From a virus: a DNA stretch of 33,275 nucleotides. Shown in pieces: positions 15,039 to 32,584 of this stretch; positions within the stretch are counted from its first letter, which is position 1; every line of letters starts with the position of its first letter. The DNA is taken from the IMG/VR virus record IMGVR_UViG_3300020159_001827, positions 1-33,275 of that record; one strand, given 5' to 3'. A program made the position numbers and the translations under genes. Below the pieces are notes generated by a model. That model was not told the origin of the DNA. It saw only the letters and a list, made by a program, of their open reading frames with translations, and did not search any database.

Positions 15039-15818
15039 ATGATTAGTATCACAGAAATTAAAGAAAAGTTCAAAGAACAATTATCAATCGACCTTTTGGA
15101 TTTATTGAAAAAATATGATCCATCGGCTCAGAATAAGTCAAGTCAGTTTAAATACACTAAATGGTTAGTGTCTTGCACCGATGAAATTGAAAACCTTAAA
15201 AAGTCAATTCTTGATGAATTTACTGATTGGTTGGAAAATGATTTCAACAAAGATTGTACAGCTTTTGATGAATTAGTAAAGGAGGGATTTATCAAAGGGG
15301 TTGATTCAGACATATTCAAGTTTAAATCGGTTGAAGATTTTAATAAGGTGTTGGAAGTGGCAAAACAACAACGTGAGTTGAAGCGTAGGGAAAAAGAATT
15401 CCATAAGTATTTTGAGGATGATGAATATATCATCGGAACACCTTTAACCTACGAGGCTTCTTTAACATATGGTTCTAGTACTAAATGGTGCACAGCTTCA
15501 AAAGATACGTCAAATCACTTCTATTCTTACTCAAAGAATGTGTTGATTTACTTTATCTCAAAGAAAAATCATAATAAAGAAACCTATGGTATCTACTTAC
15601 AAGTTGATAAATTGGGTTCAGATTTCAATGGATTGGATTCTAAAGGTAAGAAATTCACGGCAATTCAAAAACACATTGAATTCTGGAATGTTCAAGATAC
15701 CAAAACTGAAGTAAAGGACATTGTATTTGGTAGTAGAACCAAAGAAATGTTTATTAACTTGTACGAATCGGTTATCAAACACATTGAGGATAGACCTAAT
15801 ATAAAGTCTAAATCCTAA
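15039..15818 (+). CDS. KWC-family protein 1 (unknown function)
   Basis: This 259-residue protein is one of five paralogues in the window. Shared parts are an N-terminal helical segment (FKEQLSIDLLDLLKKYDPSA ... KYTKWLV, residues 11-43) and a core around residues 130-175: PLTYEASLTYGSSTKWCTAS, then HFYSYSKNVLIYFISKK. The core consensus is P-x2-Y-x-A-x3-YG-x2-(T/S)-(K/R)-W-C-(T/V/I). No catalytic function is known to me. Unlike the minus-strand paralogues it has a host-type promoter and no (I/L)xE leader. Its stop overlaps the next start by one base (TAATG). Confidence 0.8.
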   Translation: MISITEIKEKFKEQLSIDLLDLLKKYDPSAQNKSSQFKYTKWLVSCTDEIENLKKSILDEFTDWLENDFNKDCTAFDELVKEGFIKGVDSDIFKFKSVEDFNKVLEVAKQQRELKRREKEFHKYFEDDEYIIGTPLTYEASLTYGSSTKWCTASKDTSNHFYSYSKNVLIYFISKKNHNKETYGIYLQVDKLGSDFNGLDSKGKKFTAIQKHIEFWNVQDTKTEVKDIVFGSRTKEMFINLYESVIKHIEDRPNIKSKS

Positions 15819-17045: not shown

Positions 17046-18011
17046 TTAAATATATTGATCTAAACCAATTACTCTGAAGTATTCTTTCCATCCCTTATTG
17101 AATGAAATATCGTCAGATGAATAAATATGGGCATTTTCCATATCAGGTAGAGGTTGATTATCTTCATCTCTCATAATTTCACCTTTTCTATCTTTTAATG
17201 GTGGAACTAAAAACGCTACTTTATATAGATTTCTATAACCATAGTTTTCAATTTCATATCCTTTTAATGATGGTAAATTTAATCTTTGTTTGAATAATTC
17301 AGCCGCTTCATTTTCATTTTCAGCCGCTATTTCAGAAACATCTTTACCATTCTTAACTAATACCCATTTTCTTTTTTTAGAATTCCATGCGGCTTTACCT
17401 AACCCCATTGATTCCCACTTATCTTCATAATGTTCTTTAACTTTTCTTTGGGCTTCTTCACTAATAACACTTATAATGTAAAAAGTATTTCTTTGGTTGA
17501 AATAATAACCCATCCAATGAGTTGAAGTATCCATAGATACACACCATTTAGTTCCTTGACCATAATAACATATCGCATCGTGATTATAAGGTGCAACAAC
17601 TGAAATACCATTAACATTATTTAATAACGTATCAGAATTCTCACGAGCTCTCTTTCTTAATGATGTTTTATCACTATCTCCTGATGATGTATTTAAACTA
17701 TCAACTAAGTCAGTTAAATCATCAAATGATAATCTATAAATATCTTTTTTATCTTGTGGAACTCTACCAAGTAAAGCATTATATTCTGTCACATATGAAA
17801 ATATTGGTGATAAAATACCCATATCTAAATCATCTAGTGATAAATCAGATACTTTATTACCTGCTTCATCAGATTGTCTTAGATATTCTTTAATCATATA
17901 AAACACATATTTCTTTTGTGTTGTTGGATCTTCATTTAAAAATCTATCAAATGTGTCTTTTTTTAATATCCCCCTATCTAAATAGGCTCTTTTTGCTTCA
18001 TTTTTTGTCAT
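17046..18011 (-). CDS. KWC-family protein 2 (unknown function)
   Basis: This 321-residue paralogue has the N-terminal helical segment (FDRFLNEDPTTQKKYVFYMI, residues 21-40) and the core VVAPYNHDAICYYGQGTKWCVSM (about 138-160), followed by THWMGYYFNQRNTFYIIS. After the core come KAAWNSKKRKWVLVKNGKDV and a C-terminal region (GYRNLYKVAFLVPP onward) that reads like a continuation of the beta sheet. There is no (I/L)xE leader at the start (MTKNEAKRAYLDRG). A late-type box lies 3 bases before the ATG. The function is unknown. Confidence 0.8.
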   Translation of the reverse strand: MTKNEAKRAYLDRGILKKDTFDRFLNEDPTTQKKYVFYMIKEYLRQSDEAGNKVSDLSLDDLDMGILSPIFSYVTEYNALLGRVPQDKKDIYRLSFDDLTDLVDSLNTSSGDSDKTSLRKRARENSDTLLNNVNGISVVAPYNHDAICYYGQGTKWCVSMDTSTHWMGYYFNQRNTFYIISVISEEAQRKVKEHYEDKWESMGLGKAAWNSKKRKWVLVKNGKDVSEIAAENENEAAELFKQRLNLPSLKGYEIENYGYRNLYKVAFLVPPLKDRKGEIMRDEDNQPLPDMENAHIYSSDDISFNKGWKEYFRVIGLDQYI

Positions 18012-18062: not shown

Positions 18063-19886
18063 TTATCTATCGGTATTCATTATATGATATGTCTCACCAT
18101 CCCATTCAACAGTATCACCCTCACCATTATAACTATTTAATGTGTGGTAATATCCATCTTCATCAACTACCGCATTAATAAACTCATCTTCATCTATGTA
18201 ATCCCCATATTTTTCAATACCCATCTCTTTTAACCAATCTAATGGATTATCTTTTACACCATCAACCAACTCATCAATTTTTTCTTCAATCTTATCTTCA
18301 TCCCAATCACCATCCGGTTCTTCTTTAATGTTTTCAATATCATATTCAAGGTCAGATATTAAATCCGTTAGTTTATCAATACCCTTTTCAAGTGCCTTCC
18401 ATTCTCTACTATCTGAATCATAATTTTCCTGACGTTCAGTTGCTTTTTCACGGAAAGAGTTATATTTATCAATCTTTTCTTGGAATTCAGCAATCTCTTC
18501 TTTTTGTGATTTACTTAACTCCCTGTCTGTTTCATCTAAATACGACTCAGGATTATCATAAACCCAATAGTTGTAATTCTCTCTCGCCTCATCAGCTACA
18601 GCGTCAGCATCAATATATTGTTCAATAAAACTCATATTAAATCCTTCATACCCGATATCATCTAAAAGACTTTTGGCGCTATCAACAGCGGCTCGTTTAA
18701 TTTGATCATCATCACCGACAGTGTATATATATCCTTCATAATCAGGACTTGCTACACTAAATTCTGTTAAATCGTAAGTACTTTCAGGTATCATATCATA
18801 CACATCAACTCTTTTTTCTAACTCATCTTTTTCTTCTTCTAATGCTGAAATATCACCATCAATATCAGTTAAATCTCTACCCTCAACCTCATATTGACTT
18901 TGTAATTCACCTAATCTATCTAATTCAGAATCAATAAACTCAAGTCTTTCAGCATCACCCGGTTCTTTTGGTTCTAAATTTTCATAACGAGTTAAATAAG
19001 TGTATAATGCCCAAGCGTGTGATCCAACATCACCATGCGTAATTTCTTCAGGATCCCATTCATTATCTTCTCTTCTACTTTGAGCATCCTCTCTTTTTTG
19101 ATTTAATCTTCGTTGAGCTTCAACCCTTGCTAACCTTTCCCTTTCAATTTTTGCTTTTTGTTCGTCTGAGAATATTTCAATTTCTTTTGAGTAATTATCC
19201 CTCATATATTGATCTACAACTTTAAGTAAATCGTTCATATAATCAGTCCCTAATATCCAACCAGAAGAGAATTCTGTATCAGGGGCATCCCAAAACTTCT
19301 TTTCTCCATCATATCCTTGTAATAAGGCTACTTTATAGAATTTATCACTTGTAGGTAATTTCTTTGATAAGAAATAAAATAATTTAGCTTCTTTATTATA
19401 TGAATACCAATGACTATCTGTATTTTCTGAAGATGTGCACCATTTAGAACCTTGACCATAAAAACAAGAAGCTTTGTATTGTTTCGGATGAACAATTGTG
19501 TAATCGTCATCATCGTAGATTATATCAGCACCATCAACCTTTTTAATCGTTCTTCTTTGTCTATTTTCGTAGGTTTTAATTGCTTCCGCTAAGTCAGACA
19601 TACTTTTATATTGTGAAATATCTTTAATAGGTAGATTTGAACCAATTGTATTAAACCTCATTAAAAGTTCTTGTGCTTCGGATAATTCTTCAGCAAAAGC
19701 AATTTCGTTATTGAATACTGGTTTGGTAAGTGATTTAGCTAACCAAATTAAATATTTGTGTTTAGGTTCTACTTCAGATGAAACTCTGATAATAGCATCT
19801 ATTTGTTCAGGGGTTGTATATTTGTCCTTGAATATATTTTTAAAGTCCTCGACTTTTCCTTCGAATAAAAATTGTAAAAATCCCAT
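18063..19886 (-). CDS. KWC-family protein 3, long form with coiled-coil and acidic C-terminus
   Basis: This is the longest plus-or-minus paralogue at 607 residues. It opens MGFLQFLFEG, a short amphipathic leader with Leu7-Phe8-Glu9 matching an (I/L)xE site. Next come the shared helical segment (FKDKYTTPEQIDAII ... PKHKYLIWLAKSL, 19-53) and the core HPKQYKASCFYGQGSKWCTSS (133-153) with HWYSYNKEAKLFYFLSKK. Residues about 235-355 are Arg/Glu/Gln-rich coiled coil, and the remainder is very acidic (for example IYDDDDY, DEDEFINAVVDEDGYY). The acidic tail looks specific to this copy and could be a binding or assembly region. The function is unknown. Confidence 0.8.
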   Translation of the reverse strand: MGFLQFLFEGKVEDFKNIFKDKYTTPEQIDAIIRVSSEVEPKHKYLIWLAKSLTKPVFNNEIAFAEELSEAQELLMRFNTIGSNLPIKDISQYKSMSDLAEAIKTYENRQRRTIKKVDGADIIYDDDDYTIVHPKQYKASCFYGQGSKWCTSSENTDSHWYSYNKEAKLFYFLSKKLPTSDKFYKVALLQGYDGEKKFWDAPDTEFSSGWILGTDYMNDLLKVVDQYMRDNYSKEIEIFSDEQKAKIERERLARVEAQRRLNQKREDAQSRREDNEWDPEEITHGDVGSHAWALYTYLTRYENLEPKEPGDAERLEFIDSELDRLGELQSQYEVEGRDLTDIDGDISALEEEKDELEKRVDVYDMIPESTYDLTEFSVASPDYEGYIYTVGDDDQIKRAAVDSAKSLLDDIGYEGFNMSFIEQYIDADAVADEARENYNYWVYDNPESYLDETDRELSKSQKEEIAEFQEKIDKYNSFREKATERQENYDSDSREWKALEKGIDKLTDLISDLEYDIENIKEEPDGDWDEDKIEEKIDELVDGVKDNPLDWLKEMGIEKYGDYIDEDEFINAVVDEDGYYHTLNSYNGEGDTVEWDGETYHIMNTDR

Positions 19887-24979: not shown

Positions 24980-25357
24980 ATGGAAAAATTATTTGTAGAA
25001 TACGAACAAGCATTAGTTTTAAAAGAATTAGGTTTTGATGAACCTTGTTTTAGGTGGTATGATGAAAGATGGGGGGATGATTTACATCAAGATAAATATA
25101 ATACTAATAAGGATTTATTTATGACTGATTTAGATTGTTCAGCACCACTATACCAACAAGCATTTAGATGGTTTAGAGAGAAGTATAATCAACATTGTTT
25201 TATACATTATCATAGTAAACCTGAATACACATTTGTTATCTATAATGATATTAAAAGATATTGGACTTTAGATGAAAAAATATCATTTAATACTTACGAA
25301 GAAGCAGAACTCCATTGTCTTAAAAAATTAATCGAAATAGTTAAAAAACAGAAATAA
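24980..25357 (+). CDS. APLYQQAFRWFREK-family protein, copy 1
   Basis: This 125-residue protein contains SAPLYQQAFRWFREKYNQH near the middle and TYEEAELHCLKKLIEIVK at the end. That pattern is frequent in small proteins of Bacteroidota prophages and phages, with no known function. The start resembles the next gene (LKELGFDEPCF versus MKEIGFDEPCV). It is read from a host-type promoter and is separated from its paralogue by one base, so the two are a tandem duplication on one transcript. Confidence 0.75.
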   Translation: MEKLFVEYEQALVLKELGFDEPCFRWYDERWGDDLHQDKYNTNKDLFMTDLDCSAPLYQQAFRWFREKYNQHCFIHYHSKPEYTFVIYNDIKRYWTLDEKISFNTYEEAELHCLKKLIEIVKKQK

Positions 25358-25358
25358 T

Positions 25359-25733
25359 ATGAATAAAGAATTTATACCATACCAACCAAGTCTTGATATG
25401 AAAGAGATTGGATTTGATGAACCATGTGTCTATTATGTAGACAAAAACAATGAAAGTTATATCTATAACTTTGAAACCCATCCTGATGAATTTATTGAAT
25501 GGTGTGGTGTAAATGTAATTTCAGCACCACTATACCAACAAGCCTTTAGATGGTTTAGAGAGAAGCATAAACTACATTCTACTATTACATCTATAAGTCA
25601 AGAGTCTTGGCAATGGCACATTCAAAAACCTGGTCAACAATTAGGTAAATTATATGATGAAGATTTTTATACCTACGAAGAAGCAGAACTTGAATGTCTT
25701 AAAAAATTAATTCAGATTGTTAAAAATAAATAG
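25359..25733 (+). CDS. APLYQQAFRWFREK-family protein, copy 2
   Basis: This 124-residue paralogue of the preceding gene shares GFDEPC, SAPLYQQAFRWFREK and TYEEAELECLKKLIQIVK. The central region between these blocks differs. No domain with known activity is recognised. It ends 12 bases before the smpB start, which has its own -7 element. Confidence 0.75.
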   Translation: MNKEFIPYQPSLDMKEIGFDEPCVYYVDKNNESYIYNFETHPDEFIEWCGVNVISAPLYQQAFRWFREKHKLHSTITSISQESWQWHIQKPGQQLGKLYDEDFYTYEEAELECLKKLIQIVKNK

Positions 25734-25745: not shown

Positions 25746-26171
25746 ATGAAAAACAGGAAAGCATTTTATAATTATAGTATTGAAGAACAATACACCGCTG
25801 GTATTATCCTTAAAGGTGATGAGGTTAAATCCATTCGTAATGGTAAATGTAATTTTACCGATCCTTTCTGTGTGATTACATCCAATTCAATAATCCTTAA
25901 AGGTTTATACGTTAATAAGAATAATATTTTCTCACCTGATGAGTCTAGAGATAAGGTATTGTTATTAAATTCAAAAGAAATTAACAAAATCCGTAATAAG
26001 TTTATTCAAAAAGGATATGCTTTAATTCCATTGGAACTAATCTTTGTAAAAGGATTGGTTAAAATTGTAATTGGGGTTGGTAAAGGTCGTAAAACATTCG
26101 ATAAGAAAGATGTCATTAAAACTAAAGACATTGAAAGAGATACAAAAAGAGAACTTAAAAACTATAAATAA
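25746..26171 (+). CDS. smpB: SmpB-like tmRNA-binding protein
   Basis: This 141-residue protein follows the SmpB pattern: NRKAFYNYSIEEQYTAGIILKGDEVKSIRNGKCNF at the N-terminus (canonical AGI-L-G-EVKS-R), LLLNSKEINKIRNKFIQKGYALIPLELIF in the middle, and KIVIGVGKGRKTFDKKDVIKTKDIERDTKREL, the basic tail that enters the ribosome A site. SmpB carries tmRNA to stalled ribosomes. The region after residue 50 is slightly shortened. No tmRNA gene was seen nearby. It shares a transcript with the PRPP-synthetase-like gene, whose ATG is one base after this stop. Confidence 0.88.
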   Translation: MKNRKAFYNYSIEEQYTAGIILKGDEVKSIRNGKCNFTDPFCVITSNSIILKGLYVNKNNIFSPDESRDKVLLLNSKEINKIRNKFIQKGYALIPLELIFVKGLVKIVIGVGKGRKTFDKKDVIKTKDIERDTKRELKNYK

Positions 26172-26172
26172 T

Positions 26173-27126
26173 ATGGCAGAAACATTAAATTTGGTAAACC
26201 CCAACGACAAATTATCTTTCAAATATGAGATAAGTAAATTTCCTGATGGACAACAATCATTACGATTAATTGAAGAAGGATACAATACGTTCAATTCACT
26301 TAAAGAAAATCCTCACGGAATTATAATTAAATCTCGTTTGAATACATTTAAGGATTTGGAGATTATCATCTGTGCAACACAAGCATTAAAAGAGGTTGGT
26401 GTAAGTAAAATTAAACTTTATATCCCATATTGTATTGGAGGTCGTTCAGATAGAAAATTCGCTGAAGGTGGATTTAACTACATTAAAAATGTAATCGCTC
26501 CAATTATCAATAGTCAAGGATACGAAAAAGTTATTATTATGGATCCACATTCAGACGTATTAGAAGCTTGTATCAATAACATTGAAAAAGTGGATAACGT
26601 CAAGTTAGTTCATTTTGCGCTTACAGATTATTTCATAAAGAAAGGTTTTGAAGTGTGGGATAAAATGAATTTTGAGAAACTCCGATTGATATCACCTGAT
26701 GCTGGTGCATTAAAGAAAGTATTCTATGTCGCCGAAAGGATTGGTTATAAAAATGAGGTTATTATAGCGTCAAAACATCGTAATCTTGAAACAGGTAAAA
26801 TTGATTATACCAATGTACCAATGTCAGTAAATGACGCAGATAAAGATATCTTTATTATTGACGATATTTGTGATGGTGGTAGAACATTCATTGAGATAGC
26901 TAAAGCGGTTAATGATGTTAGAAATCTATCAAGTTCCGTTCAACCACAACATTACGGTAAAAACTATTTGATTATTACTCACGGAATATTTAGTGCCGGT
27001 TACGCTAATTTAGGTGAATATTTTGATTGTATTTACACAACAAATAGTGTGAAAGATATTGGTGGAACTGAGTATCATGCCTTGGCAAATACACCAACAA
27101 AGGTTAAACAATTAAATATATTTTAA
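26173..27126 (+). CDS. ribose-phosphate pyrophosphokinase-like enzyme; candidate ADP-ribose pyrophosphate synthetase (Adps of NARP1)
   Basis: The start is ATG 26173, one base after smpB. The longer open frame would overlap smpB. The 317-residue product has PRPP-synthetase features: FPDGQQSLRL (23-32), the ATP-site region YIPYCIGGRSDRKFAEGG (83-100), IIMDPHSDVLEA (121-132), ISPDAGALKKV (173-183), a KHRN flexible-loop equivalent (201-204) and the phosphoribosyl-binding loop IDDICDGGRTF (229-239). Classical Prs transfers pyrophosphate from ATP to ribose-5-phosphate. In phage NARP1 the homologous Adps uses ADP-ribose instead. The N-terminus and the GGRSDR insertion differ from bacterial Prs. The neighbouring NAMPT-like and macro-domain genes favour an ADP-ribose role, but this is inference. 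Confidence 0.85.
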   Translation: MAETLNLVNPNDKLSFKYEISKFPDGQQSLRLIEEGYNTFNSLKENPHGIIIKSRLNTFKDLEIIICATQALKEVGVSKIKLYIPYCIGGRSDRKFAEGGFNYIKNVIAPIINSQGYEKVIIMDPHSDVLEACINNIEKVDNVKLVHFALTDYFIKKGFEVWDKMNFEKLRLISPDAGALKKVFYVAERIGYKNEVIIASKHRNLETGKIDYTNVPMSVNDADKDIFIIDDICDGGRTFIEIAKAVNDVRNLSSSVQPQHYGKNYLIITHGIFSAGYANLGEYFDCIYTTNSVKDIGGTEYHALANTPTKVKQLNIF

Positions 27127-27153
27127 AGATTTGGGTATAATAAATAATTAATT

Positions 27154-27630
27154 ATGGGAATGTATAAAGAAATTAAAGGGGATTTAATTAAACTCGCGAT
27201 TCAAGGGGAGTTTGACGTTATTGCTCACGGATGTAATTGTATGTGTAATATGGGTGCAGGAATTGCTGTTGGTATGAATAAGAAGTTTGGGGTTGGAAAT
27301 TATCCATTGGAACATCCAAATATGGCAGGTAATGTTAATAAATTGGGACAAATTGAATTTAGGTTATTCCCATTAACACCTGAAAAAGGTGTTAATGTGG
27401 TTAATTGTTATACTCAATATTACCCATCAAGGAAATTAAAACCATTAGATTATGAAGCACTAAAATTATGTTTAAGGAAAATTAATTTTACTTTTAGTGG
27501 TAAAAAAATTGGATTACCTATGATTGGTGCTGGTTTGGCTGGTGGTGATTGGAATATAATTAAAGAATATATTATCGAAGAATTATCAGATTGTGATGTA
27601 ACGGTTGTAATTTATGATGGGGGTGAATAA
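27154..27630 (+). CDS. macro-domain protein (ADP-ribose binding or hydrolysing)
   Basis: The 158-residue single domain has macro-fold signatures: KGDLIKLA (8-15), DVIAHGCNCMCNMGAGIAVGM (21-41) and GLPMIGAGLAGGDW (about 134-147), close to the ADP-ribose-1''-phosphate phosphatase (Poa1p) type. Macro domains bind ADP-ribose, and some remove it from proteins, DNA or small molecules. It lies between the PRPP-synthetase-like and NAMPT-like genes, so it may guard or recycle ADP-ribose, or reverse ADP-ribosylation by host toxins such as DarT. No clear promoter of either type precedes it, so it is probably on the smpB-Prs transcript. Confidence 0.88.
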   Translation: MGMYKEIKGDLIKLAIQGEFDVIAHGCNCMCNMGAGIAVGMNKKFGVGNYPLEHPNMAGNVNKLGQIEFRLFPLTPEKGVNVVNCYTQYYPSRKLKPLDYEALKLCLRKINFTFSGKKIGLPMIGAGLAGGDWNIIKEYIIEELSDCDVTVVIYDGGE

Positions 27631-27639
27631 TAAATAAAT

Positions 27640-27669
27640 TTGGAATTAATAATATTTCCATTATCTTTG
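27640..27669 (+). promoter_or_regulatory. Bacteroidota-type promoter (TTG-N19-TATCTTTG)
   Basis: TTG at 27640-27642 and TATCTTTG at 27662-27669 are separated by 19 bases. The ATG at 27690 is 20 bases downstream. Confidence 0.75.
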
Positions 27670-27689
27670 TAATCTAATAAATAAAAAAA

Positions 27690-28133
27690 ATGAAAGAATA
27701 TTTTGATAAAAATCCTGAATCTACTCCATATTTGGATAGATTGGAAAAAGAATGGCGTGAGCATGGTAAAATAGTAATAGCGGTTGATTATGACTCAACC
27801 ATATTCCCATATCACACAATTGACAATGCTAAAGACATTGAGAAAGTTATTGATGTGTTAAAAATAGCGAAAGAAACAGGTGCTTATATAGCGATTTTTA
27901 CTTGTAGTGCTCCTGATAGACACGATGAGATTAGGGAATATTGTAAAACTAAAGGGTTGTCAATCGACTCTATTAATGAAAACCCAATTCACTTACCTTA
28001 CGGACATCACGGAAAAATATATGCGAACATATATCTTGATGATAGGGCTGGGTTAAATGAAGCGTTAAAAACACTTCAATTCGCAATGTATAAAATCAGA
28101 GGATCTAAAACTACCCAAATGTATGATTTTTAA
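27690..28133 (+). CDS. HAD-superfamily hydrolase
   Basis: This 147-residue phosphatase-like protein has the four HAD motifs: AVDYDSTIF (nucleophile Asp33, Asp35), IFTCSAP (Thr71/Ser73), Lys109 in HHGKIYAN and YLDDRAG (Asp117/118). There is little room for a cap domain, as in the short HAD proteins seen in many phages. The substrate is unknown. Its place between the macro-domain and NAMPT-like genes suggests a nucleotide or phospho-ribose substrate. It has its own host-type promoter. Confidence 0.82.
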   Translation: MKEYFDKNPESTPYLDRLEKEWREHGKIVIAVDYDSTIFPYHTIDNAKDIEKVIDVLKIAKETGAYIAIFTCSAPDRHDEIREYCKTKGLSIDSINENPIHLPYGHHGKIYANIYLDDRAGLNEALKTLQFAMYKIRGSKTTQMYDF

Positions 28134-28139
28134 AAAAAA

Positions 28140-28170
28140 TTGGATAAGTAAAAATTAAGAAATATATATG
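28140..28170 (+). promoter_or_regulatory. probable host-type promoter (TTG-N20-TATATATG)
   Basis: TTG at 28140-28142 and TATATATG at 28163-28170 are separated by 20 bases. The -7 element has one mismatch to TAnnTTTG. The NAMPT-like ATG is at 28198. Confidence 0.5.
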
Positions 28171-28197
28171 TAAAACAATTTAAAACAATAAAAAATT

Positions 28198-29715
28198 ATG
28201 TTCAAACCAATTGCATTGTATTATACCGATGGGTATAAGGCATCACACAAAAAAATGTTAGCTAAAGGAACTGCTAAATTATACGGAACTTGGATTCCTC
28301 GCTCTTTAAAATACGCACCTAAAGGTGTTAAAAAAATCTTGTCAGTTGGACATCAACTAACAATGCGTTGGTTGCATGATGAGTTCCAAGAAAACTTCTT
28401 CAATCAACCAAAAGATGTTGCAACCCAATTCCAATCAGATATGTCAAAATATCTTGGTATGGATTACGATGGGGCTCATTTCGAAGCCTTACACGATTTA
28501 GGTTATTTACCTATCCGAGTTAAAGCTTTACCTGAAGGTATTGAAACCTCACCAAACATTCCACATATGACATTTATCAATACTATTGATGGATTTGCTT
28601 GGCTTACACTTTACCTTGAAACAGTCATTTCAAGTTTGGCTTGGAAAACATCTACATCCGCTACAATCGCACTACAATATCGTAGAAATGTTGCTAAATG
28701 GGTGGCTAAAACAGACCCAGCAAACGCTTGGTTAATTCCTTTCTTATGTCACGATTTCTCAGCAAGAGGTTTATCACCTTTTGATATGTTATCAAGTGGA
28801 TTAGGACACGCAATGTCATTCAGAGGTAGTGATACCTTAATTGTTATCCCTGGAGCTCGTTATTTCTATGACGAATCAAAAGATGAGGTATGTATCAATT
28901 CGGTAAATGCTTCAGAGCATTCAGTATCAACTACAAAGATTTTTACCGTTGGTGAATCTCAGATGATTGCCGATTGGTTAGTTGAATTCCCTGATGGTAT
29001 TCTTTCAATTGTATCGGATACATTTGATTTATGGAAATTAATTACTGAGTATTTACCTGAAAATAAAGAAGCTATTATGGCTCGTAATGGTAAATTAGTA
29101 ATTAGACCTGATAGTGGTGATCCAGTAGATATTATTTGTGGTTATGACTTTTCTAAATTAGAAGATGATGGTTGGAAATCAAAAGGATTTAAAGATAGGC
29201 CAAGTACTAAAGGAGTAATAGAACTTCTTTGGGATATCTTCGGTGGTGAAATCAACGAACAAGGTTTCAAAGTTTTAGATCCTCACATCGGAGCAATCTA
29301 CGGAGATTCGATCACATTGGATCGTCAATTGGAAATCTATGAAAGATTGGAAATGAAAGGATTTGCATCAACCAATATTGTATTAGGTGTAGGTAGTTTT
29401 ACTTATCAATACAATACTCGTGATACATTAGGATTCGCAGCAAAAGGTGCTTGGTTTGAGGTTGAAGAAAATGGTGTGAGAACTGGTTTTGATATCTATA
29501 AAGACCCTATAACTGATGACGGTACCAAGAAGTCTTTGAAAGGTAGATGTGCAGTTCATATTGAAAATGGTGAATATGTGGTGAAGATTCAATGTAGTGA
29601 AGAAGAAGAAAAGGGTGGGATATTACAAACTATCTATGAAGATGGTAAGTTCTATAACCAAACAACTTTAACCCAAATCAGGGAAAGAATTGATAAATTG
29701 GTTGAGGTTGAATAA
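28198..29715 (+). CDS. nadV: nicotinamide phosphoribosyltransferase-like enzyme (NadV/NAMPT family); candidate Namat of NARP1
   Basis: The 505-residue product has family length and a complete set of active-site positions by comparison with human NAMPT: YYTDGYKASH (8-17), HDFSARG (185-191, Phe187 stacking on nicotinamide), GSDT (Asp212), ASEHS (His241, the phosphorylated histidine), VIRPDSGDPVD (Arg303, Asp305), IYGDSIT (Asp370) and LGVGSF. NAMPT joins nicotinamide to PRPP to give NMN. In the phage NARP1 pathway a homologue (Namat) joins nicotinamide to ADP-ribose pyrophosphate and gives NAD+ directly. No NMN adenylyltransferase gene is visible in the window, which slightly favours the NARP1 reading. 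It is read from its own promoter. Confidence 0.93.
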   Translation: MFKPIALYYTDGYKASHKKMLAKGTAKLYGTWIPRSLKYAPKGVKKILSVGHQLTMRWLHDEFQENFFNQPKDVATQFQSDMSKYLGMDYDGAHFEALHDLGYLPIRVKALPEGIETSPNIPHMTFINTIDGFAWLTLYLETVISSLAWKTSTSATIALQYRRNVAKWVAKTDPANAWLIPFLCHDFSARGLSPFDMLSSGLGHAMSFRGSDTLIVIPGARYFYDESKDEVCINSVNASEHSVSTTKIFTVGESQMIADWLVEFPDGILSIVSDTFDLWKLITEYLPENKEAIMARNGKLVIRPDSGDPVDIICGYDFSKLEDDGWKSKGFKDRPSTKGVIELLWDIFGGEINEQGFKVLDPHIGAIYGDSITLDRQLEIYERLEMKGFASTNIVLGVGSFTYQYNTRDTLGFAAKGAWFEVEENGVRTGFDIYKDPITDDGTKKSLKGRCAVHIENGEYVVKIQCSEEEEKGGILQTIYEDGKFYNQTTLTQIRERIDKLVEVE

Positions 29716-30345: not shown

Positions 30346-31161
30346 ATGAAAGACACAAAAACATATCACGAACTAGTGCAAAAACTCAGGGAGTTTTTCC
30401 TAGCAAAGGGCTTCTTAGAAGTTCCTACACAATCAAGATTATCTATCTTGGCGGCATGCGAAAATCCGCACTCAATTACACAATTTAACTACTCAGGTGA
30501 AGTTTGGCCTTTACCGCAAACAGGTCAGATGCAACTGGAGCATGAGCTTTTACAAAACCCGGATTGGAATGGGGTATTTTGTATTTCAACATCATACAGA
30601 CAAGAAAAAGATCCAATTCCTGGAAGACACGAACTTATTTTCCCAATGTTTGAATTTGAATCTAAGGGTGATATGAATGTTATGAGAAAGATGGAGGAAG
30701 AATTGCTCATTCATTTAGGGTTTGGAACACCTAATCGTGTATTCTATAATTCTATGTGTGATAAATATGATGTTCAGATTTTGGAGAACAGAGAAGAAAC
30801 TAAAATGTGGGAGGATTTCGGACATTGTATATCATTGGAACATTTCCCAGAAAGAACAAATCCATTTTGGAATATGAAACACGATAAAGATGATTTATAT
30901 AATAAAATTGATGTTATTTTATTTGGACAAGAAACAATTGGTTCGGCTGAAAGAAGCACAAATGTAGAACAAATGAGAAATACATTCTATACAATTGAAA
31001 ATGGTGGTTACGCTAATAAATTATTTGAACTATTCGGTAAAGAAAGAGTTGAAAAAGAATTAGAAGAATTCTTATCATATGACTTCTTTAGCAGATTTGG
31101 TGGCGGAATAGGAATGACAAGATTAAGCCGAGCTTATAACTTATTAAACAACATTAAATAA
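30346..31161 (+). CDS. class II aminoacyl-tRNA synthetase-like enzyme lacking an anticodon domain; AsnA-like asparagine synthetase candidate
   Basis: This 271-residue protein is only the catalytic core of the Asp/Asn/Lys synthetase class: motif 2 CISTSYRQEKDPIPGRHELI ... FEFE (79-105) and motif 3 GGGIGMTRLSRAY (252-264). The N-terminal anticodon-binding OB fold of AspRS and AsnRS is absent. That architecture matches asparagine synthetases of the AsnA type, including the archaeal AspRS-derived form, which activate aspartate with ATP and amidate it with ammonia. Another possibility is a paralogue that aminoacylates a non-tRNA target. The gene ends 8 bases inside the convergent gene. No promoter of either class is clear. 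Confidence 0.78.
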   Translation: MKDTKTYHELVQKLREFFLAKGFLEVPTQSRLSILAACENPHSITQFNYSGEVWPLPQTGQMQLEHELLQNPDWNGVFCISTSYRQEKDPIPGRHELIFPMFEFESKGDMNVMRKMEEELLIHLGFGTPNRVFYNSMCDKYDVQILENREETKMWEDFGHCISLEHFPERTNPFWNMKHDKDDLYNKIDVILFGQETIGSAERSTNVEQMRNTFYTIENGGYANKLFELFGKERVEKELEEFLSYDFFSRFGGGIGMTRLSRAYNLLNNIK

Positions 31162-32584
31162 GTTTATCCAAAGGAGTTTTAACCAATTTAGGGGTAGGGA
31201 CAATCATTACGTTTCTACCCCTTTTTTCTAATTTAATTAAACCAAATGAATAAAGAGATCTAAGTAATGGTTTTACATTATGTGATGCCAATAATCTTGG
31301 ATCAACAATTCTTCTTATTGTTGTGATATTTTGCTCACCTTTATCTTTTAATAATTTAATTGCTGTAATAAATGCTTTTTGAGGGACTTTTTTAGTTCCC
31401 ATATTTTCAATATCTTGATATAATTTAACAGATGAAAAATATTCGTTAGGATTGTCAATAAAATACTTTTTAACTTCAGGGGATTTTAATAAATCAATAA
31501 CTGATTTTTTAATTAACGAAGTAAAATTAGATTTAGTTATTTTTTCGTTCGATACTCTCGATAAAACACTTATTGGCGTAAAACTATAATATCTTTCACC
31601 TGTTTTTTCATCATTTATTAGTTTATAATAATAAAATGTTGCTGATATGTTGTTATTTTTAACATCTATATCAACTTCTATAAAGTGTCTGGATTCCCCG
31701 AATTGATACTTTAATTCTAACATAGAGTAATCGGTATTAAATTTTAATCCCACCCTTTTATAATCCTTAATATATTTAGTACTATAATTATCGTAAAGAG
31801 AAAATTTAATAAAATTTTCATCTAATTCATCTTTAGCGATTTTACTATCTTTACCAATTGATTCAAATATTTCTGGTATGAATCTTCTTACCATATTTAC
31901 TTGATCGGGTGTTAATTTGTTATCCGCAGCATCCCAAACCTCAATTACATTTGCTCTTTTATTAACAAGTATCGCCATTTTATATAAAACATCTTCAGAG
32001 TCAAGTTTTTCTTTTTTATCGATAACAAAATAAATATGATTGTTTTCAGAATATCCATAACCAATAAATCTATTATCACTTTTAGTTGCCGATATACACC
32101 ATTTAGTTTCAGAACCATACTTACAAGAAGCTTCTTTACTTTTAACTCTAATTACTAACCATCTATCACTTTCATAGATTTTATCAATTTCTTTTTCAGA
32201 CTCTTTTATTCTCTGATTTTCTTCAACCTCTTCAATTATATCAAATAACGAGTTAGCGTCTTGAGCCAATATATCTTTAGTGATTAGATTTTTTGATTTA
32301 TATAACATCCATTTATTGAAGTTGTAATACACACCCTCAAAAGCGTCACCTAATCCAGTTCCACCATAGTTATAATATTCATCAACCAAATCAAAAAACT
32401 TGGATATATATTTTTTTGGGGTTGGAATATTTTTAATGAATTCTTTAGTAAAATAATCAAATTCTTTTGAGAATTCTGGATTATTCCCAATATCACCTTT
32501 AGATAACTTTTCTTTTTTGTTTTTGATGATATTATCAATTTCACCCTCCAACAATATATTTTCAATTAGTGTTCTTAAACTCAT
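31154..32584 (-). CDS. KWC-family protein 5, with leader and C-terminal winged-helix-like domain
   Basis: This 476-residue paralogue starts MSLRTLIENILLEGEID, a short amphipathic leader with Leu11-Leu12-Glu13 matching the (I/L)xE pattern. The core is VKSKEASCKYGSETKWCISA (147-166) followed by RFIGYGYSENNHIYFVIDKKE. After a beta-rich middle, residues about 400-470 (KAFITAIKLLKDKGEQNITTIRRIV ... SLYSFGLIKLEKRGRNVMIV) look like a winged-helix fold that could bind nucleic acid. It is read from a late-type box in a divergent region with the M15 peptidase. The function is unknown. Confidence 0.8.
   Translation of the reverse strand: MSLRTLIENILLEGEIDNIIKNKKEKLSKGDIGNNPEFSKEFDYFTKEFIKNIPTPKKYISKFFDLVDEYYNYGGTGLGDAFEGVYYNFNKWMLYKSKNLITKDILAQDANSLFDIIEEVEENQRIKESEKEIDKIYESDRWLVIRVKSKEASCKYGSETKWCISATKSDNRFIGYGYSENNHIYFVIDKKEKLDSEDVLYKMAILVNKRANVIEVWDAADNKLTPDQVNMVRRFIPEIFESIGKDSKIAKDELDENFIKFSLYDNYSTKYIKDYKRVGLKFNTDYSMLELKYQFGESRHFIEVDIDVKNNNISATFYYYKLINDEKTGERYYSFTPISVLSRVSNEKITKSNFTSLIKKSVIDLLKSPEVKKYFIDNPNEYFSSVKLYQDIENMGTKKVPQKAFITAIKLLKDKGEQNITTIRRIVDPRLLASHNVKPLLRSLYSFGLIKLEKRGRNVMIVPTPKLVKTPLDKLI
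31190..31227 (+). terminator. terminator for the AsnA-like gene inside the convergent gene
   Basis: GGGGTAG (31191-31197) pairs with CTACCCC (31215-31221), followed by T6. It lies in the 3' coding end of the minus-strand KWC gene. Confidence 0.55.

Follow-up and report, generated by a model that had tools for sequence, protein, structure and literature searches.

Bacteria widely counter phages by destroying NAD+, a loss whose reversal by the phage pathway NARP1 is experimentally established. The homologous pair NrsAB of Vibrio phage ICP1 counters the NAD+-depleting Nezha SIR2-HerA system, as shown genetically (PMC11559045). Mycobacteriophage DyoEdafos carries within its NARP1 operon RyDEP, an RyR-domain glycosidase that releases ADP-ribose and has been shown to feed NARP1 (PMC13232231), and in Pseudomonas phage Adele the macrodomain protein PaAdele_020 is encoded beside NARP1 and is proposed to free ADP-ribose (PMC12846349). 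Here we describe a related locus in IMGVR_UViG_3300020159_001827, a linear virus record of 33,275 bases that is probably a fragment and was analysed over its whole length (the window). Judged by sequence, we put the probability of a phage NARP1 module in the window at roughly 0.9. The locus comprises the following genes, the first of which, encoding SmpB, ends 1 bp before the start of the next:

25746-26171, + strand: SmpB gene (Pfam SmpB, E 3.6e-43, full model)
26173-27126, + strand: P0001, Adps-type homologue of ribose-phosphate pyrophosphokinase (Prs) (phrog_619, E 1.7e-59; motifs and tree)
27154-27630, + strand: macrodomain protein of the TARG1/DarG/Poa1p (ALC1-like) class (phrog_335, E 5e-45; AlphaFold model)
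27690-28133, + strand: small HAD-type phosphatase, BT0820-like (phrog_1238, E 1e-22; AlphaFold model)
28198-29715, + strand: P0002, Namat-type nicotinamide ADP-ribose transferase (SCH motif, SCL K38-Y39 and tree)

The four genes from Adps to Namat are co-directional, with gaps of 27 bp, 59 bp and 64 bp in that order. P0001 comprises 317 amino acids from the ATG at 26173 (the frame is also open from a TTG start at 26071) and P0002 comprises 505 from the ATG at 28198. An initial annotation, made from the letters alone, had placed a Prs-like gene and a NAMPT-like gene with intact motifs at these positions in one metabolic island; both are indeed present and intact on the + strand, have family matches far above chance and belong to the same co-directional run, but the macrodomain and HAD genes lying between them had been overlooked. 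By analogy with the described pathway we infer that P0001 would form ADP-ribose pyrophosphate from ADP-ribose and ATP and that P0002 would couple this product with nicotinamide to give NAD+ directly. The phage would thereby restore the NAD+ removed by the NADase defences of its host, with no need for an NMN (nicotinamide mononucleotide) adenylyltransferase.

Comparison with the described systems places the Adps and Namat pair in a known kind (NARP1) and makes the embedded macrodomain and HAD genes, above all the recurring HAD, the newer part. The locus shares with NARP1 of Bacillus phage SPbetaL1 the SCH motif GSFTYQYNTRD, the catalytic core and the two-enzyme logic, but differs in that Arg40 and Ala362 of SPbetaL1 are replaced by a Lys-Tyr SCL and Ser371, and in that two genes separate Adps from Namat. 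In ICP1 the homologous genes are adjacent, with neither macrodomain nor HAD in the stretch examined. An extra enzyme inserted in the NARP1 operon is a feature common to DyoEdafos and the window, although it is RyDEP in the former and a macrodomain and a HAD protein between the pair in the latter; we found no RyR-domain gene in the window, and control genomes gave no match either. In Adele the macrodomain gene lies downstream of the pair and the passage describing it mentions no HAD protein, whereas here both the macrodomain and HAD genes lie between Adps and Namat. The crAss-like phages cr126_1, cr111_1 and DAC15 (a Bacteroides phage) share three of the families in overlapping open reading frames (ORFs), but these run in the reverse order (Namat-HAD-Adps), without a macrodomain, and their HAD proteins are ~36-39% identical to ours and annotated as phosphoheptose isomerase or hypothetical. 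We found no paper linking NARP1 to a phosphatase in a literature search that excluded most subscription papers, the original NARP1 paper included.

The identification of P0002 as a Namat is drawn from published residue rules and from phylogeny. It matches phrog_448 (nicotinamide phosphoribosyltransferase) with E 8.9e-160 and scores 429.8 bits against NF006629, for which the cut-off is 405. The 2026 structural paper on SPbetaL1 Namat (PMC12774641) separates Namat from Nampt by two elements, an SCH helix with the conserved motif GSxxxxxxTRD, in which residues 3 and 7 are aromatic, and an SCL loop that has in third position either Arg or else Lys/Tyr with a stacking fourth residue; the adenine-clamp motif is described there as absent from Nampt. 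In P0002 the SCH motif is GSFTYQYNTRD at 399-409, identical to that of PDB chains 9w5x/9w5w, and the SCL residues S36-L37-K38-Y39, which align to T38-S39-R40 of SPbetaL1, conform to the rule in its Lys-Tyr form. Eighteen of the 20 NAD+-contacting residues listed for SPbetaL1 Namat (PMC12774641) are identical in P0002, among them D11, Y13, F187, R190, D212, R303 and D305; the exceptions are R40 to K38, which the SCL rule covers, and A362 to S371. The EHS histidine H241 is invariant and the Nampt-like catalytic core is conserved. P0002 scores 380 bits against 9w5x/9w5w, which we take to be SPbetaL1 Namat because the residue numbers fit those of the paper (D13, Y15, R40, F392, D400), 360 bits against 9ke8 (motif GAQTYQRNTRD) and at most 162 bits against the remaining Nampt chains, including the human and Xanthomonas-type enzymes.

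In a maximum-likelihood tree of 53 proteins, P0002 groups with phage and Bacteroidota Namats, and the NadVs of KVP40/nt-1, RB43, IME13, phiN3 and RBC57 are split with 100/100 support from P0002 and all motif-bearing proteins. The classical NadVs compared lack the adenine clamp and carry GMGGGLLQ..RD in its place, a GMGG-type motif that P0002 does not have. P0002 is 45% identical to NrsB of ICP1. Thus the exact clamp motif and the separation from KVP40/RB43/phiN3-type NadV both bear out the Namat reading first proposed for this gene. In a group of Namats from six other loci (L092, L096, L098, L101, L108 and L109), GSFTYQxxTRD gives way to GSYSMGYATRD or GSFSMGYATRD, a variant form of the clamp motif.

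P0001 scores 85.7 bits against the canonical Prs model TIGR01251, below its cut-off of 113, a shortfall that is expected since the Prs is divergent. It carries the motifs DPHSDVLE, SPDAGALKK and DDICDGGRTF, common to Namat-linked enzymes, where E. coli Prs has DLHAEQIQ, SPDIGGVVR and DDMIDTGGTL. A tree of 48 proteins groups P0001 with the Namat-linked enzymes, apart from canonical Prs. The latter, represented by only three rows (E. coli and two Bacteroidota housekeeping enzymes), forms a clade of its own with 100/100 support, and the branch leading to it measures 2.5 changes per site. We found no publication that ties Adps specificity to particular residues, so the identification rests on phylogeny, motifs and linkage: the tree and the three motifs set P0001 apart from canonical Prs, as the proposal of an Adps anticipated, and P0001 and Namat are separated by two genes, inside the 10-gene distance used to link an Adps to Namat.

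The family PF01467 (NMN ADENYLYLTRANSFERASE) gave 0 matches in the 33-kb window, while controls matched in 14/14 cases, and it was likewise absent from 8 contigs of close relatives. The observation in the initial annotation that no NMN adenylyltransferase is visible therefore holds for the record and for these related contigs. Its wider NARP1 reading is supported as well, in that we found neither clustering of the two proteins with classical Prs and NadV, nor a pocket restricted to phosphoribosyl pyrophosphate (PRPP), nor an NMN adenylyltransferase gene paired with them.

The macrodomain protein yielded an AlphaFold model with a predicted local distance difference test score (pLDDT) of 93.8. 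In VIA comparisons it matched BT1257 (Z 19.6, root-mean-square deviation (rmsd) 2.5, 147 residues aligned), TARG1 (18.4, 2.2, 136), DarG (18.1, 2.5, 143) and Poa1p (16.6, 2.5, 146), so that the Z scores to the ALC1-like class span 16.6-19.6 with rmsd 2.0-2.9. The protein thus has the macro fold with its ADP-ribose-binding loops, and H25, N28, G36 and the motif IGxxLAGG are invariant. Enzymes of the TARG1/DarG/Poa1p class detach ADP-ribose that is bound to DNA or protein, or dephosphorylate ADP-ribose-1''-phosphate. Sequence alone does not reveal which of these substrates phage macrodomains hydrolyse (PMC9503650). In phage phiN3 an Appr-1-p (macro) gene lies ~1.5 kb downstream of a classical NMN adenylyltransferase and NadV pair (L410, 1861-6416). 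Free ADP-ribose is no substrate for that pair, and an anti-signal role of the macrodomain is therefore equally open.

The HAD protein was modelled with a pLDDT of 95.1, and its best VIA match was BT_0820 (Z 11.1, rmsd 4.6, 112 residues aligned), followed by the T4 Pnkp phosphatase (Z 8.0). The catalytic residues D33, D35 and T37 (DxDxT), T71, K109, D117 and D118 show little or no variation across 51 sequences. With E 4.6e-7 and 30.3 bits against NF046079, for which the cut-off is 165, the protein is by sequence a distant relative of that family rather than an equivalog member. We reject the label phosphoheptose isomerase, given by PHROG and RefSeq, since the model folds as a HAD protein, matches BT_0820 best and is not that of a SIS isomerase. 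None of the ORFs in the fetched loci was a fusion of HAD to Adps or Namat.

Close relatives of the window operon have the order SmpB-Adps-HAD-Namat without the macrodomain. The SmpB-Adps order is retained in three related contigs (L005, L013 and L022), and the Adps is of divergent type in L005 and, by weak score, in L013; thus the parts of the operon are swapped rather than fixed. A PhoH-based chance control comprised 16 loci only, and the PhoH search was used to find relatives instead. Namat is absent from a 98-kb contig whose PhoH is 96% identical to that of the window, and therefore the module may not be common to the whole phage group.

Namat or Nampt homologues of any kind occur in 1,915 of 50,697 phage records. 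Among 105 non-redundant loci recovered with a Namat query, the fetched flanks contained Adps in 87, HAD in 27 and the macrodomain in 22. Conversely, Namat and/or Adps lay within 6 kb in 47/58 non-redundant IMG/VR loci recovered with the HAD query and in 34/58 recovered with the macrodomain query, figures that describe those subfamilies rather than all HADs and macrodomains because the query alignments were made from NARP1-linked members. Among named phage genomes the HAD family was found in 35 records. Among the lineages inspected, it is the immediate neighbour of Adps or Namat in cr126_1, cr111_1, DAC15, Phass-1, VPT02, PTm1, Lak-A1 and Lak-B1, but not in FLC8, TSW001 or LR756501. Vibrio phage VPT02 has the order Adps-HAD-Namat, PTm1 is a Tenacibaculum phage, and in Lak-B1 HAD lies beside Adps at ~417 kb while the Namat match of that record is at 195 kb. 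Phass-1 (L304, 2893-6408) carries an operon nicotinamidase-Adps-Namat-HAD, a puzzling combination, as nicotinamidase and Namat would be competing for nicotinamide.

In Bacteroidota genome assemblies, HAD lies between or overlaps Adps and Namat in 6 of 80 Namat loci, many of which hold NADAR or nucleoside deoxyribosyltransferase-like genes. NADAR has been described beside phage NAD+ salvage genes (PMC9503650); none was found in the window. A PF15891 nucleoside 2-deoxyribosyltransferase-like gene was near NARP1 in 41/148 non-redundant loci (e.g. L238:3198-3689), and in 16 of these the distance was within 50 bp. We rejected HAD as a general NARP1 partner in all bacteria, since Adps or Namat was near 0/30 Bacteroidota BT0820-like loci (~1.5 kb flanks); the link to NARP1 therefore belongs to the phage-type HAD subfamily. 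HAD and macrodomain genes occurred together in 2 Namat-query loci and singly in 24 and 19 (p 0.027; 0.055 over all loci), in a test that ignores shared ancestry. Strong mutual exclusion of the two was also rejected: the pooled p of 2e-5 is biased because the loci were gathered through HAD and macrodomain queries, and the Namat-query set gives p 0.027-0.055 only. The window and L042 contain both genes.

The roles of the macrodomain and HAD proteins in the pathway are conjecture. Their placement suggests ADP-ribose supply or clean-up, and most likely they would broaden the range of compounds that the pathway can exploit or withstand. The macrodomain would release ADP-ribose adducts or clear them away, and the HAD protein would remove phosphate from an ADP-ribose-related metabolite; for the latter, supplying or cleaning ADP-ribose for Adps is the function that we favour. 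Alternatively, the two may be unrelated accessory genes, for example for RNA-end repair or the reversal of ADP-ribosylation, that share one early counter-defence region, an explanation to which we give a little less than even odds. Genes for RNA ligase, NADAR, nucleoside deoxyribosyltransferase-like and Band7 proteins are repeatedly found nearby, an RNA-end phosphatase (T4 Pnkp) is the second structural match of the HAD protein, and a macrodomain gene occurs near the NadV of phiN3. However, a gap of at most 50 bp to the nearest NARP1 gene is far commoner for HAD (40/59 loci) and the macrodomain (22/40) than for RNA ligase (0/12), Band7 (3/13) or NADAR (2/14).

A more doubtful proposal is that HAD is a third component of NARP1 supplying ADP-ribose to Adps, for example from ADP-ribose-1''-phosphate or ADP-ribose-2'-phosphate. 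The former arises from RES-type NAD+ phosphorylases and the latter from NADP+. Adjacency and overlapping ORFs across unrelated phages are consistent with such a role, as are the position of HAD beside Adps in Lak phages, with Namat elsewhere in the genome in Lak-B1, and the rarity of HAD and macrodomain together in Namat-query loci. Against this, the nearest structures are BT_0820, which has no known function, and an RNA-end phosphatase, both genes are present in the window and in L042, and the co-occurrence test takes no account of shared ancestry. That HAD is specifically an undescribed third enzyme dephosphorylating ADP-ribose 1''-phosphate or 2'-phosphate to feed Adps is, if anything, slightly less probable again. 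If it were so, HAD-bearing phages could rebuild NAD+ despite NAD+ phosphorolysis or NADP+ cleavage by a defence. If HAD is a component of the pathway at all, NARP1 would be larger and more modular than two genes. The presence of macrodomain, NADAR and RyDEP genes at NARP1 loci suggests that phages gather enzymes returning ADP-ribose derivatives to NAD+.

By far the least probable explanation is classical salvage, with P0001 as PRPP synthetase, P0002 as a NadV/Nampt forming NMN and a host or phage NMN adenylyltransferase completing NAD+, which we reject on motifs and trees: homologues are annotated as Prs and NAPRT, the published Namat keeps some NMN-forming activity from PRPP (PMC12774641) and the window is a fragment, but P0002 has the adenine clamp missing from the classical NadVs compared, P0001 falls outside the canonical Prs clade and no PF01467 gene occurs in the window or the 8 related contigs. 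P0002 may additionally use PRPP, since the published Namat retains this activity. Several observations weigh against the NARP1 reading or the roles attached to it. A PF01467-fold ORF was present in 7/20 records tested, mostly longer Namat-bearing contigs, and because the record is a linear fragment the absence of PF01467 applies to the window rather than to the whole phage. Long branches meet at the NadV/Namat split of the tree, and human and Xanthomonas Nampt stand outside it, being compared by score only. The macrodomain need not feed Adps, because one also lies near the phiN3 NMN adenylyltransferase and NadV pair, and in Bacteroidota, where 295 genomes of the bacterial class surveyed yielded generic BT0820-like HADs, these do not lie near NARP1.

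The record carries T4-type portal, terminase large subunit, PhoH and lysozyme genes. Its GC content is 30%, and the leaders at the gene starts inspected are AT-rich with no obvious Shine-Dalgarno sequence; these features, together with Tenacibaculum/Bacteroidota relatives, tentatively suggest a Bacteroidota host, although the nearest named Namat is that of a Leptolyngbya phage (66.5%). The phage SmpB (25746-26171, + strand) is a full-length trans-translation and ribosome rescue factor; no transfer-messenger RNA was found in the window. Downstream of Namat, 30346-31161 (+ strand) encodes a class II aminoacyl-tRNA synthetase-like catalytic core of 271 amino acids with a weak AsnRS match, which leaves no room for an anticodon-binding domain and matches phrog_29758 (function unknown) with E 3e-97. 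Four genes, at 15039-15818 (+), 17046-18011 (-), 18063-19886 (-) and 31154-32584 (-), all match phrog_17056 and/or phrog_28193 (unknown function) and perhaps share a repeated fibre or adhesin domain. Just upstream of SmpB, 24980-25357 and 25359-25733 (+ strand) encode tandem paralogues of ~125 amino acids that both match phrog_25117 (unknown function).

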